Source of the DNA: Corynebacterium sp. CNCTC7651
Lineage (GTDB): Bacteria; Actinomycetota; Actinomycetes; Mycobacteriales; Mycobacteriaceae
Direction: 5' to 3'
NCBI RefSeq assembly: GCF_021496665.1
Contig: NZ_CP071246.1
Location: 1,178,001 to 1,242,000 of the forward strand
DNA: 64,000 bases
The notes beneath the pieces were generated by a model. That model was not told the origin of the DNA and ran no database searches. It saw nothing but the letters and a program-made list of their open reading frames with translations. Positions within the stretch are counted from its first letter, which is position 1; each line of letters starts with the position of its first letter. This document shows positions 35,052 to 42,479 of the stretch, in pieces. The position numbers and the translations under genes are program-made.

Positions 35052-35887
35052 CTAAATAGACCCGCCGGAAAGGCGCTGGCCAGCGAGCTCTTCCGCCTGT
35101 TTCCGCAGCTCAGCCACCCCGGGCCCATGCGCCAGCACGGACCGGGACACACTCGGAAACACTAGCTCGGTTCGTGACCCGCCGAGGCGATCCGCGTCCT
35201 CAAACGTCGCCCCCTGCGCGCCGACACCGGGCATCAGCACCGGCCCCGAAAGCTCATCCAGGGCAAGGTGCTTATCGACGGTAGCTCCCACCACAACGCC
35301 CACATGCGAAGCCCCGAACTGCGCATTTAGCGCCGCGCACTCGTCCACCATGAACTGTGCAACGGTCGGCGCCTCCGGCACGCCCAGCGTAGCCGATTGG
35401 AACTCCACAGCCTCCGGGTTAGAGTTGGCGGCCATCACAAACACGCCCTTGCCATGCTCGGCCGCCAGCTCCACCGCGGGCGCGAGCGAGCCGACGCCGA
35501 GGTACGGCGTAAGCGTCACCGCATCAGCCTCGAGCGGGGACCCCGGCGCGAGCCACGCCGCGGCGTATCCGGCCATGGTGGATCCGATGTCGCCGCGCTT
35601 TGCGTCAGCAATGCTCAGCGTGCCGGTCTCGCGCAACGCCGCGAGCGTCTCCTCCAGCACCGCGAACCCCTGGGATCCGAAGCGCTCGAAAAACGCCACC
35701 TGGGGCTTCACCACCGCAACAACGTCCGCGAACGCCTCCACGCACGTCAGCGCGAAAGTGCGTACACCGTCCGCAGAATCCGGCAGGCCCCATTGGGTCA
35801 GCAGCTTGGCGTGCGGGTCGATGCCCACGCACAGCCTGCGGCGCTGCTCACCCGCGGCAATCAGACGCTCACCGAAGCTCGCCGCCA

Positions 35888-35888
<1 letters not shown>
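35052..35888 (-). CDS. pyrF: Orotidine 5'-phosphate decarboxylase (PyrF type 2)
   Basis: A 278-residue decarboxylase making UMP from OMP, the last step of the pathway. It belongs to the longer actinobacterial subfamily: CVGIDPHAKLL (about 20-30), VVKPQVAFFERFG (about 59-71) and the catalytic DAKRGDIGSTM (about 94-104). Its ATG overlaps the carB TAA by one base (TAATG), so translation is coupled. Last gene of the pyr operon. Confidence 0.96.
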
Positions 35889-39235
<3,347 letters not shown>

Positions 39236-39700
39236 TTATTTGGCCTCCTGGATCTGGATGGTGGCCTGTTGGGGGCCGGTCTTGGAAAGGTGGCGGACCA
39301 GTTTGCGGGTGTCCACGCCGCGGATGCCGGTCACGCCTTGGTTGCGCAGCTCTTCTTCGAGGCTGCGCTGCGAGCGGAAATTCGAAGGGATGCGCGAGAC
39401 ATCGCGCACGACCACCGCCGCGGGAGTAATCGACCCATCGCCCGAGCTGTCCTCGCTATTCCAGCCCACGTTGCCAATTTGGGGTGCGGCGAAGACCAGG
39501 ATCTGGCCCTCACGCTCCGGCGAGGTCATCTCTCGCTGGTAGCCGAACATGTCGACGGTGTGGGTGCAGGTGCCTTCGATCTCCTCAGCGCCAGCCTCAG
39601 TGCCGGCCTCAGCGCCGGTGCTGCCCGCACCGATTGCGAAGCCGGGGAATTCGGTGCCGTCGGCCAAGACCAGCACGGCAGGGATGCGGTGGTTGCTCAT
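39236..39700 (-). CDS. carA: Carbamoyl phosphate synthase small subunit, truncated: N-terminal domain only
   Basis: A 154-residue CarA that matches only the N-terminal small-chain domain. Normal CarA is about 380-395 residues and has a C-terminal class I glutamine amidotransferase domain with a Cys-His-Glu triad; here the frame ends in QIQEAK and TAA, with the carB ATG next. Recognisable blocks are VLVLADGTEFPGF (about 8-20), FGYQREMTSPEREGQILVFA (about 53-72), APQIGNVGWNSED (about 73-85), VVRDVSRIPSNFR (about 98-110) and GIRGVDTRKLVRHL (about 126-139). A Gly/Ala/Glu-rich insert occupies about 24-42. The ATG overlaps the pyrC TAA (TAATG). Ordered context argues against a random remnant, but function is unproven. 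Confidence 0.85.
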   Translation of the reverse strand: MSNHRIPAVLVLADGTEFPGFAIGAGSTGAEAGTEAGAEEIEGTCTHTVDMFGYQREMTSPEREGQILVFAAPQIGNVGWNSEDSSGDGSITPAAVVVRDVSRIPSNFRSQRSLEEELRNQGVTGIRGVDTRKLVRHLSKTGPQQATIQIQEAK

Positions 39701-40983
39701 TAGAAGTCCTTTTCCATGTATGTGGTCGTGCCGCGCAGCCAGGTGGCCACGATTTTCGCGTTGAACGCCATCTCCTCGTACGGGGTGTTGGATGCTTTGG
39801 ATTGCAGTTCTTTGCCGTGGACAACCCACGTCGCATCCGGGTTCACCAAGGTCAGGTTGGCCGGCTCGCCTACAGCGATCGGGCGGCCCTGGTCCTCCAG
39901 GCGGAGGATCTCCGCCGGGCGTTCACTCATAACCTTGGCAACGAAGCGCCAGTCCGCTAGCCCCGACTGGACGAAAACCTGGGCGACGACGGCCAGCGAG
40001 GTCTCCAGGCCCAGCATGCCGGGCTTCGCGTGCTCGAACTCCACGCACTTGTCCTCGGAGCCGTGCGGGGCGTGATCGGTGGCCACAACATCAATGGTGC
40101 CGTCGAGCAGCGCGTCGCGCAGCGCCACGGTGTCGCGGGCCTCGCGCAGCGGCGGGTTGACGCGGTAGTTGCCGTCGTAGGTGTTCAAGCAGTCGTCGGT
40201 AAGCAGCAAGTGGTGCGGGGTGACCTCGGCCGTGATCTCGATGCCCTGGCCCTTCGCCCAGCGCAGGAGCTCGACGGTGCCCTCGGTGGAGGCGTGGCAG
40301 AGGTGGTAGCGCCCGCCATAGTCGCGGGTCATGATCGCGTCGCGCGCCACGATGGATTCTTCCGCCACGCGCGGCCAGCCGCGCAAGCCCAGCTTGGCCG
40401 CGGTCTCGCCCTCGTGGGCGCAGGCATCCGCGGTCATGCGGTGGTCCTCGGCGTGCTGGGCCAAGATGACGTCGTACGCCTTGGCGTACTCGATGGCGCG
40501 GCGCATGAGCTGCGGGTCATTTACACAGCGCCCGTCGTCGGAGAACATGCGCACGTGGCTGCGGGACATCAGCCCGATCTCAGTGAGCTGTTCGCCTGCG
40601 AGCCCCTGAGTGATGGAGCCGACCGGGTACACGTCGCACTTGCCGTACTCCTGCCCCTTGTTCCACACCGCTTCCGCCAGGAACGGCTGATCAATCACCG
40701 GCTGGGTGTTCGCCATGGTGAACACGGCGGTGAAGCCGCCCTTGGCCGCGGCGTCGGAGCCGGTGGCAATGGTCTCGGTGTCCTCGCGACCCGGCTCGCG
40801 CAGGTGCACGTGCATGTCCACCAGGCCCGGCAGGAGGATGTTACCCCCGCAGTCAAGGACAGTGTCAGCATCGGCGAATGGCTCTGCGCCGATGGATTCG
40901 ATCACACCGCCGTCGACATCGATGAGGATGTTGGTCACGTCCTCGCCGTACGGGCGGACGTTGTTCAGCGCTAGCGTGCTCAT
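39700..40983 (-). CDS. pyrC: Dihydroorotase
   Basis: A 427-residue amidohydrolase of the type I dihydroorotase class closing carbamoyl aspartate to dihydroorotate. Metal site: [12 protein letters not shown] (about 54-65) near the N-terminus; later [14 protein letters not shown] (about 226-239) and the catalytic ATDHAPHG (about 302-309), followed by [11 protein letters not shown]. The start overlaps the pyrB stop by 4 bases (ATGA). Confidence 0.96.
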
Positions 40984-41915
40984 GCGCGCGCTCCTTCCTC
41001 GCCGCTTGCCAGCAGCGTAAACAGCACGGCCATGCGGGTGTACACGCCGTTGGATACCTGGCCCAGCACTACCGTGTTAGGGCGGTCGGCCACGTCGAAG
41101 TTGATTTCCATGCCGCGCAGCATCGGGCCGGGGTGCATAATCAGCGCGTCCTCCCGCAGCCTCTCCGCCCGCGCGGCGGAGAGCCCGAACAGCGTGGCGT
41201 ACTCGCGGTGGGACGGGAAGAAACCGCCGTGCATGCGCTCCGCCTGCACGCGAAGCATCATGACCACATCCGGCTGCTGCTCAATCGCCGCGTCAAAGTC
41301 GTGCGTGGTCTCGCACGGCCAGTGCTCCACCCCGGTTGGCATGAGCGTTGGCGGGGCGACTAGGGTCACGCGCGCGCCGAGCGCGCTGAGCAGGTCAACG
41401 TTGGAGCGCGCCACGCGGGAGTGCAGGATATCGCCCACCAGGATCACGTGCTTGCCCGCCACATCGCCGATGTGCTGGCGCATGGTCACGGCATCCAGCA
41501 GCGCCTGGGTGGGGTGCTGGTGCTGGCCGTCGCCCGCGTTGATGATGCTGGTTTCAGGCAGCCACTGGCGCAGCAGGTTCGGCGCGCCGGAGGCCGGGTG
41601 GCGCATCACAATCGCGTCCGCGCCCACCGCAGCCAGCGTCGCCGCCGTGTCCTTTAGGCTCTCGCCCTTCTTCACGCTGGAGCTAGATGCGGCGACGTTG
41701 ATCACGTCCGCGCTCATCCACTTGCCCGCGGTTTCAAAGCTGGAGCGGGTGCGCGTGGAGTTCTCGTAGAACAGGGTGAAGATGGTGCGCCCGCGCAGCG
41801 TGGGCAACTTCTTGATCTCGCGGCCGTCCAGCGCCTCGCGGAAGCGGTCGGCCTCATCCATCAGGCCCACAATTTCTTCGCGGGTCAAGTCTTGAATGCT
41901 GATCAGGTGCTTCAT
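40980..41915 (-). CDS. pyrB: Aspartate carbamoyltransferase catalytic subunit
   Basis: A 311-residue transferase joining carbamoyl phosphate to aspartate. The carbamoyl phosphate motif is [10 protein letters not shown] (about 52-61), with [10 protein letters not shown] (about 103) and the [14 protein letters not shown] region (about 131-144), then [11 protein letters not shown] (about 162). No regulatory pyrI is present, as usual in actinobacteria. Its ATG directly follows the pyrR stop. Confidence 0.96.
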
Positions 41916-42479
41916 CTACTCCGCCTCCTTGGTCAGGGTGACGCCATCGCAATCGTCGATAGGCGTGAGGCTCACGGTCACATCCTCGGTTTTCGCGGTG
42001 GGGATGTTCTTGCCCACGTAATCCGCCCTAATGGGCAACTCGCGGTGACCGCGGTCCACCAACACTGCCAGCTGGATCACCTGGGGGCGGCCGATATCGC
42101 GCAAGCTGTCCAGCGCCGCGCGGATGGTGCGCCCGGAATACAGCACGTCGTCCACCAAGATGACGGTCGCGCCGTTGATGTCGCCCGGAATGTTCGTCGG
42201 CCGCAGCGCGCGGTGGGGCTTATCGCGCAAGTCGTCGCGGTACAGCGTCACATCCAGGCTGCCTACCGGCACCGTGACCCCGCTGAACTCTTCAACCGCG
42301 TCCGCTATGCGCTGCGCTAAGGGCACACCCCCCGACGGAATACCCAGCAGCATGACTTTGGCAGACGACTCAGTGTCCAGCGCCGTCTTCTCAATAATCT
42401 GGTGCGCGATGCGTGCGATAGTTCGCCCGACGTCTTGAGCCGTCAATAGCTCAACCGTCGCGCGGTTACTCTCACTCAT
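41916..42479 (-). CDS. pyrR: Pyrimidine operon regulator / uracil phosphoribosyltransferase PyrR
   Basis: A 187-residue PyrR, an RNA-binding regulator with weak uracil phosphoribosyltransferase activity. The PRPP-binding motif is [18 protein letters not shown] (about 103-120), and the N-terminal [11 protein letters not shown] helix and [12 protein letters not shown] (about 48-59) are family features. The ATG follows AAGGAGGT by 4 bases. That site lies within a PyrR-binding-like sequence, suggesting translational self-control as in mycobacteria. First gene of pyrR-pyrB-pyrC-carA-carB-pyrF. Confidence 0.96.

Follow-up and report, generated by a model that had tools for sequence, protein, structure and literature searches.

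A Corynebacterium clade encodes a CPSase small subunit without its glutaminase domain, probably as part of an ammonia-fed enzyme

The window, a stretch of 64,000 nucleotides that corresponds to positions 1178001-1242000 of a one-contig Corynebacterium genome of 2.45 Mb (G000), contains a pyr operon in which the gene for the small subunit of CPSase, carA, is much shortened (Table 1). The gene order pyrR-pyrB-pyrC-carA-carB-pyrF is the same here and in all 27 other loci that we compared. On the minus strand, pyrC and carA overlap through the junction TAATG, and carA passes into carB through TAAATG with no spacer. In the 15 genomes where we found the short form, the carA frame is open and the gap between carA and carB is 0-23 nt. 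Such gaps leave no room for a glutaminase remnant between the two genes, and we therefore rejected this possibility.

Table 1. Coordinates of the operon genes and of one carB segment, counted from the first letter of the window
Feature	Position	Strand	Description
pyrF	35052..35888	-	OMP decarboxylase; closes the operon
carB	35888..39235	-	CPSase large subunit, 1115 aa; begins directly after the carA stop
carB segment	38144..38626	-	about E. coli CarB 200-360, part of the carboxyphosphate domain; coordinates computed from a 4-residue offset
short carA	39236..39700	-	CPSase small-chain N-terminal (docking) domain only, 154 aa, without glutaminase
pyrC	39700..40983	-	dihydroorotase; overlaps the carA start (TAATG)
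pyrB	40980..41915	-	aspartate carbamoyltransferase, uses carbamoyl phosphate; PF00185 match within
pyrR	41916..42479	-	first gene of the operon; presumably pyrR, named from its position

In the short CarA protein, the PF00988 profile is matched over its whole length (1-126) by residues 10-148 with 104.7 bits, against a cut-off of 27, and no other Pfam family was detected at E ≤ 0.001. The match to the NCBIfam model TIGR01368 is confined to positions 1-132 of 361 and stays below the cut-off (102.4 bits versus 307); a full-length relative (L023) reaches 457 bits against the same model. In the alignment, the protein ends upstream of both the glutaminase cysteine and the histidine (Cys269 and His353 in E. 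coli). Having no glutaminase domain, it is devoid of the Cys-His-Glu triad and of the glutamine site. The same was seen across the short proteins scanned, where PF00988 was found in 11 of 11 and a GATase family in 0 of 11. PF00988 occurs once in the genome of the window and is the only small-subunit domain there. No GATase domain lies near carA, the nearest of the ten PF00117 matches in this genome (E ≤ 1) being located about 56 kb away.

The docking domain that is left has itself diverged. Its motif GYQREMTSP corresponds to GYQETMTDP in 13 aligned full-length relatives and to GYQEILTDP in E. coli. Six positions (E. coli 37, 41, 47, 79, 123 and 135) are conserved in E. coli and, with at most one exception, in 32 full-length CarA proteins, and none of the 15 short ones retains them; one sequence (G095, 9 aa, wrongly extracted) was dropped from these counts, leaving the 32 long forms. 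Threonine 37 is replaced by phenylalanine in 15 of 15 short proteins, and glutamate 41 by arginine, glutamine or cysteine. The fold is predicted to be preserved: an AlphaFold2 model of the short CarA (11 sequences, pLDDT 80.2) has as its best PDB match E. coli CarA (1jdb_C, TM 0.82, 1.9 Å), followed by human CPS1 (5dou/5dot).

A sequence-only reading of this stretch had described a carA of 154 residues without a glutaminase domain, with none in nearby frames, followed at once by the carB ATG and preceded by an intact pyrC-carA junction. The open reading frames, Pfam and NCBIfam bear out this description, and the sequence agrees with it at both junctions. The altered N-terminal motif is present as that reading claimed, and Pfam likewise finds both ATP-grasp halves of CarB. 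A second full-length carA elsewhere in the genome, which the reading had named as the point to check, does not exist there as far as a single PF00988 occurrence and a query with full-length CarA can tell.

We then consider how widely the short form is distributed. PF00988 was found in 149 of 151 Corynebacterium genomes by profile search; eight of these 149 have frames of 160-232 aa scoring 89.7-112.6 bits, and the rest have frames of at least 383 aa scoring at least 155 bits. A profile built from eight short proteins detected the short form in at least 15 of 242 Corynebacterium genomes (231.9-267 bits), the next match being a full-length CarA at 175.9 bits. The figure of 15 is a lower bound, because frame length was not seen for about 37 of the 242 genomes, which are known only to score below the matches listed and in which a strongly diverged short form would escape. 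The short proteins are 146-167 aa long. A scan of named-species genomes gave nine short loci, from C. stercoris, C. glaucum, C. riegelii, C. haemomassiliense and five other strains. The nearest named relatives found for the genome of the window are Corynebacterium, and the short CarA of C. stercoris is 82% identical to that of the window. In a separate comparison, ten other short CarA proteins are 48-89% identical to it. In a sample of the phylum (147 genomes, including that of the window), PF00988 was matched in 139 and had no match in eight; every near-whole-domain match other than that of the window belongs to a frame of 367 aa or more, and two genomes (G348 and G293) gave partial matches only.

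The short forms appear to share one origin. In a CarB tree of 15 short-form and 15 full-length loci, the short-form loci make up one clade (100/100) nested within the full-length ones. Full-length relatives exist at a CarB identity of 83-86%. The short forms are also grouped in the CarA tree (100/100), but its branches are very long and its bootstrap is unsettled, and our inference of origin therefore rests on CarB. The simplest reading would be that a single event removed the glutaminase half at the domain boundary and that the short form was retained through the later radiation. The sequence-only reading had left to a comparison of carA across Corynebacterium whether the short form is conserved, and had called the architecture new if fixed in the lineage; conservation and fixation both hold: it occurs in at least 15 of 242 genomes, in one CarB clade, as the same gene at the same place in 15 species-level genomes.

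Some single genomes have peculiarities of their own. Two Corynebacterium genomes (G129 and G143) lack carA; for CarB, they give at best weak matches that fall in other ATP-grasp frames. Synthesis of carbamoyl phosphate by CPSase seems to have been wholly lost in them. In another genome, two small-chain domain matches of equal score lie about 7 kb apart (G137:C2:1062488-1062865 and 1069454-1069831), which could reflect a duplication of carA or a repeat in the assembly.

Selection still acts on the short gene. The dN/dS ratio is 0.20-0.30 in the eight closest pairs, with a median of 0.38 over the 98 usable of 105 pairs; in 13 full-length relatives, the corresponding domain has a median of 0.19 (76 of 78 pairs). 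The short carA is thus under purifying selection, but under a weaker one than the same domain in full-length relatives. Thirty-four positions are invariant over 11 short CarA sequences, and CarA is the least similar of the eight proteins compared in 13 of 14 short loci.

The partner subunit, CarB, contains both ATP-grasp halves, the oligomerisation domain and the MGS domain, and passes the cut-offs of TIGR01369 and NF003671 (1332 and 1544 bits). Among 24 positions that we take to be active-site, gate or tunnel residues, 21 carry the E. coli residue in 15 of 15 short-form and 33 of 33 long-form genomes. The two sets depart from E. coli in the same way at positions 202 and 210, and position 232 is alanine in all 15 short-form and in 24 of the 33 long-form genomes. 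Changes fixed in the short clade cluster in one zone: of the 19 CarB columns that are conserved in the long set (at most one exception allowed) and lost in all 15 short-form genomes, 16 fall at 200-360, against a background of 132 of 724 conserved columns (p=4e-10, for a zone picked after viewing the data). At positions 228, 229 and 240, the fixed change of the short clade restores the E. coli residue.

A second zone emerges when the comparison is restricted to the 447 columns that are invariant in E. coli and the 33 long forms. At least one short-form genome is altered at 19 of the 139 columns within 200-360 and 404-553, the latter being presumably the oligomerisation domain, versus 3 of 308 elsewhere. 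When at least eight short-form genomes are required to differ, the counts become 12 of 139 and 0 of 308 (p=5.8e-7). Since related sequences are not independent, the p-values for CarB are to be taken only as a guide. As a control, 13 nearer full-length relatives, whose internal diversity equals that of the short set (mean identity 0.901 versus 0.905), were compared with 20 distant sequences and E. coli: none of the 139 columns in the two zones was altered and 10 of 318 were altered elsewhere. Against these same references, the short set is altered at 19 of 139 columns in the zones and at 5 of 318 elsewhere. The small subunit is described as touching the carboxyphosphate and oligomerisation domains of the large subunit (PMC6245113), and the zones of change agree with these contact domains at the level of domain statements and presumed boundaries, as opposed to coordinates. 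Broken down by zone, 12 of 97 invariant columns are altered at 200-360 and 7 of 42 at 404-553. Residues 1-199 are likewise assigned to the carboxyphosphate domain but, with 1 of 89 columns altered, are not released in this way, which counts against the contact reading, as does the return to the E. coli residue at 228, 229 and 240. Two other carB genes deserve separate mention: one contains an in-frame TAA within the match (G009:C1:1197912-1201241) and another is divided over two frames (G001:C5:150595-153914), perhaps through a frameshift or a sequencing error.

Several explanations other than an ammonia-fed enzyme have to be weighed against these data. A truncation caused by an assembly error or by a recent, strain-level deletion, the caveat attached to the sequence-only reading, can be excluded because the same architecture recurs in at least 15 of 242 genomes, eight of the 15 being single contigs, and because their CarBs form one clade. 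Isolated E. coli CarB makes carbamoyl phosphate from ammonia, and CarB could act alone in this way in the short clade, the short CarA being a remnant in decay that contributes little or nothing. Synthesis from ammonia by the large subunit, as described for CPSase (PMC6245113), would allow this, and the remnant would fit both an evolutionary rate about twice that of the same domain in long CarA and the rank of CarA as the least conserved protein of most short loci. However, the short gene is under selection, which makes a useless remnant rather unlikely: the frame is open in 15 of 15 genomes, dN/dS is well below 1 in close pairs, 34 positions are invariant and the predicted fold appears intact. 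Some partial decay is conceivable, since selection on the short CarA is weaker (0.38 versus 0.19). A change of job of CarB, such that it no longer supplies carbamoyl phosphate to both pathways, might be read from its fixed changes; we regard it as very improbable in view of the unaltered catalytic residues, the intact pyr order and the two tiers of carbamoyltransferase that are present in 28 of 28 genomes.

The remaining alternative is a glutaminase supplied in trans, in which another class I amidotransferase (TrpG, a PRK09065-like GATase or one of two small GATase-like genes) would dock on the core formed by the short CarA and CarB. A docking domain retained under selection is what one expects if something still binds, and the genome of the window does encode TrpG along with several small matches of the class I GATase type, its GATase-family matches including GuaA, a PabB-type frame with a GATase domain, TrpG, HisH, PurQ, the PRK09065-like protein and the two small ones. 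We nevertheless find this scenario unlikely. A query with full-length CarA (E ≤ 1) revealed no CarA-type GATase outside the short locus in eight short-form genomes: it returned weak GATase matches (best 6.6e-10), as it did in three full-length genomes, and a few others with E > 0.01. The stronger of these matches in the window's genome are GuaA, the PabB-type frame and TrpG. Nor is there a surplus of such domains, with 5-8 PF00117 matches in eight short-form genomes versus 6-11 in eight full-length ones, CarA's own domain counted. The alteration of CarB in its contact domains also speaks against a replacement partner.

Of the two options offered by the sequence-only reading, we therefore favour an ammonia-fed enzyme over a glutaminase in trans, the eight short-form genomes showing neither a CarA-type GATase nor a GATase surplus. 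On the whole, comparative evidence makes it likely that we are dealing with a fixed bacterial CPSase, probably fed by ammonia, whose CarA shed its glutaminase half in a single event and kept the docking domain. In this hypothesis, the short CarA would still dock on CarB as a cap and scaffold, and the docked domain may help to close the carboxyphosphate site and to admit NH3. With the glutaminase gone, the tunnel mouth should lie exposed, and free NH3 could enter there; alternatively, it might take the external-ammonia path proposed for CPS1. Within the first half of CarB, ammonia would then react with carboxyphosphate, and the carbamoyl phosphate produced would feed pyrimidine and arginine synthesis.

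Work on the E. coli enzyme provides a basis for such a mechanism. The large subunit is reported to catalyse carbamoyl phosphate synthesis from ammonia (PMC6245113), and variants whose glutamine tunnel is blocked or perforated are described as having normal activity with external ammonia, for which a path beside the small subunit is considered possible (PMC4655335). The ammonia concentration required by E. coli CPSase is, however, very high and was judged likely to be physiologically irrelevant (PMC6245113). The short clade would consequently need either a high internal concentration of ammonium or a better site. Urease as a source of ammonia tied to the short CarA was rejected, as there is no association between the two (2 of 15 short-form versus 3 of 13 long-form genomes). 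A lower demand through loss of the arginine pathway is also unsupported: two tiers of PF00185 matches, assigned to ArgF and PyrB by score and position, are present in all 28 genomes examined. A urinary isolate of C. riegelii is reported to grow in a fully defined artificial urine with added peptides, the development base of which held ammonium oxalate and whose description in the main text makes no mention of uracil, cytidine, arginine or glutamine (PMC12915295). Such growth is no more than compatible with a working de novo synthesis.

The wider nitrogen metabolism of the genus may place the loss in context. CTP synthase (PF06418) had no match in 34 of 40 Corynebacterium genomes, including 15 of 15 with the short CarA and 19 of 25 with a full-length one; the negatives comprise 18 one-contig genomes, and 14 of 14 control genomes are matched. 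The six genomes with matches, at about 1e-123 to 1e-125 (G009, G010, G014, G019, G032 and G117), are the same six of the 40 that have a full-length GOGAT large subunit (PF01645, frame of 1520-1556 aa), as called by score and frame length. By this definition, full-length GOGAT is absent from 15 of 15 short-form and 19 of 25 full-length-CarA genomes tested. Sixteen of the 34 genomes without it have only a protein whose frame is about 516-577 aa long; in the others, matches are weak or absent. Without GOGAT, the uptake of ammonium into glutamate would fall to other routes, and its absence could hint at an ammonium-rich lifestyle. Because both GOGAT and CTP synthase are missing from the same 34 of 40 genomes, 15 with short and 19 with full-length CarA, the distribution suggests, short of proof, that the loss of full-length GOGAT and of the glutamine-dependent CTP synthase came first and that the CPSase glutaminase disappeared later, within one branch. 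More tentatively, the short clade may embody a permanent class of free-ammonia CPSase, whose small subunit would serve as a docking and entry cap, and which might have arisen as a late step in a stepwise retreat from the amide nitrogen of glutamine; we see this broader scenario as possible, with the odds somewhat against it.

Glutamine is described as what supplies E. coli CPSase with nitrogen under physiological conditions, a statement that is extended to every bacterial CPSase (PMC6245113). A CPSase from which the glutaminase was deleted would be an exception to this rule. It would also offer a natural experiment, in which comparison can separate the CarB residues that serve coupling to the glutaminase from those that serve catalysis. 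In the open-licence PMC literature, as covered by titles and abstract openings and with most enzymology lying outside it, we found no report of a CPSase small subunit without a glutaminase in Corynebacterium.

Compared with known systems, the short form appears to be assembled from parts of known kinds, and what would be new is their combination, with a deleted glutaminase fixed in a bacterial clade. It resembles the CarA-CarB enzyme of the E. coli type in the fold of the small-chain N-terminal domain (TM 0.82) and in the domains of CarB, and it occupies the same operon position as in its full-length relatives; it differs in the missing glutaminase and in a CarB that is altered mainly in the contact-domain zones. 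In hyperthermophilic archaea, carbamate-kinase-like synthesis takes its nitrogen from ammonia. That route, reported to yield carbamoyl phosphate without a glutaminase (PMC6245113), relies on a different enzyme, whereas the ATP-grasp CPSase is kept here. Another parallel is CPS1 of the urea cycle, which is described as not hydrolysing glutamine, as using free ammonia and as keeping its N-terminal docking domain (PMC4655335), and with which the short form would share the use of ammonia. In CPS1 the glutaminase domain is dead, is fused to the synthetase and belongs to an enzyme that depends on N-acetylglutamate; in the short form the domain is gone and the subunits are separate and bacterial. This would be a simple evolutionary path to ammonia dependence, unlike that of CPS1, whose domain stayed but was disabled, and, if the use of ammonia is true, the Corynebacterium enzyme would stand as the bacterial counterpart of CPS1, one that arose through deletion and not through inactivation.
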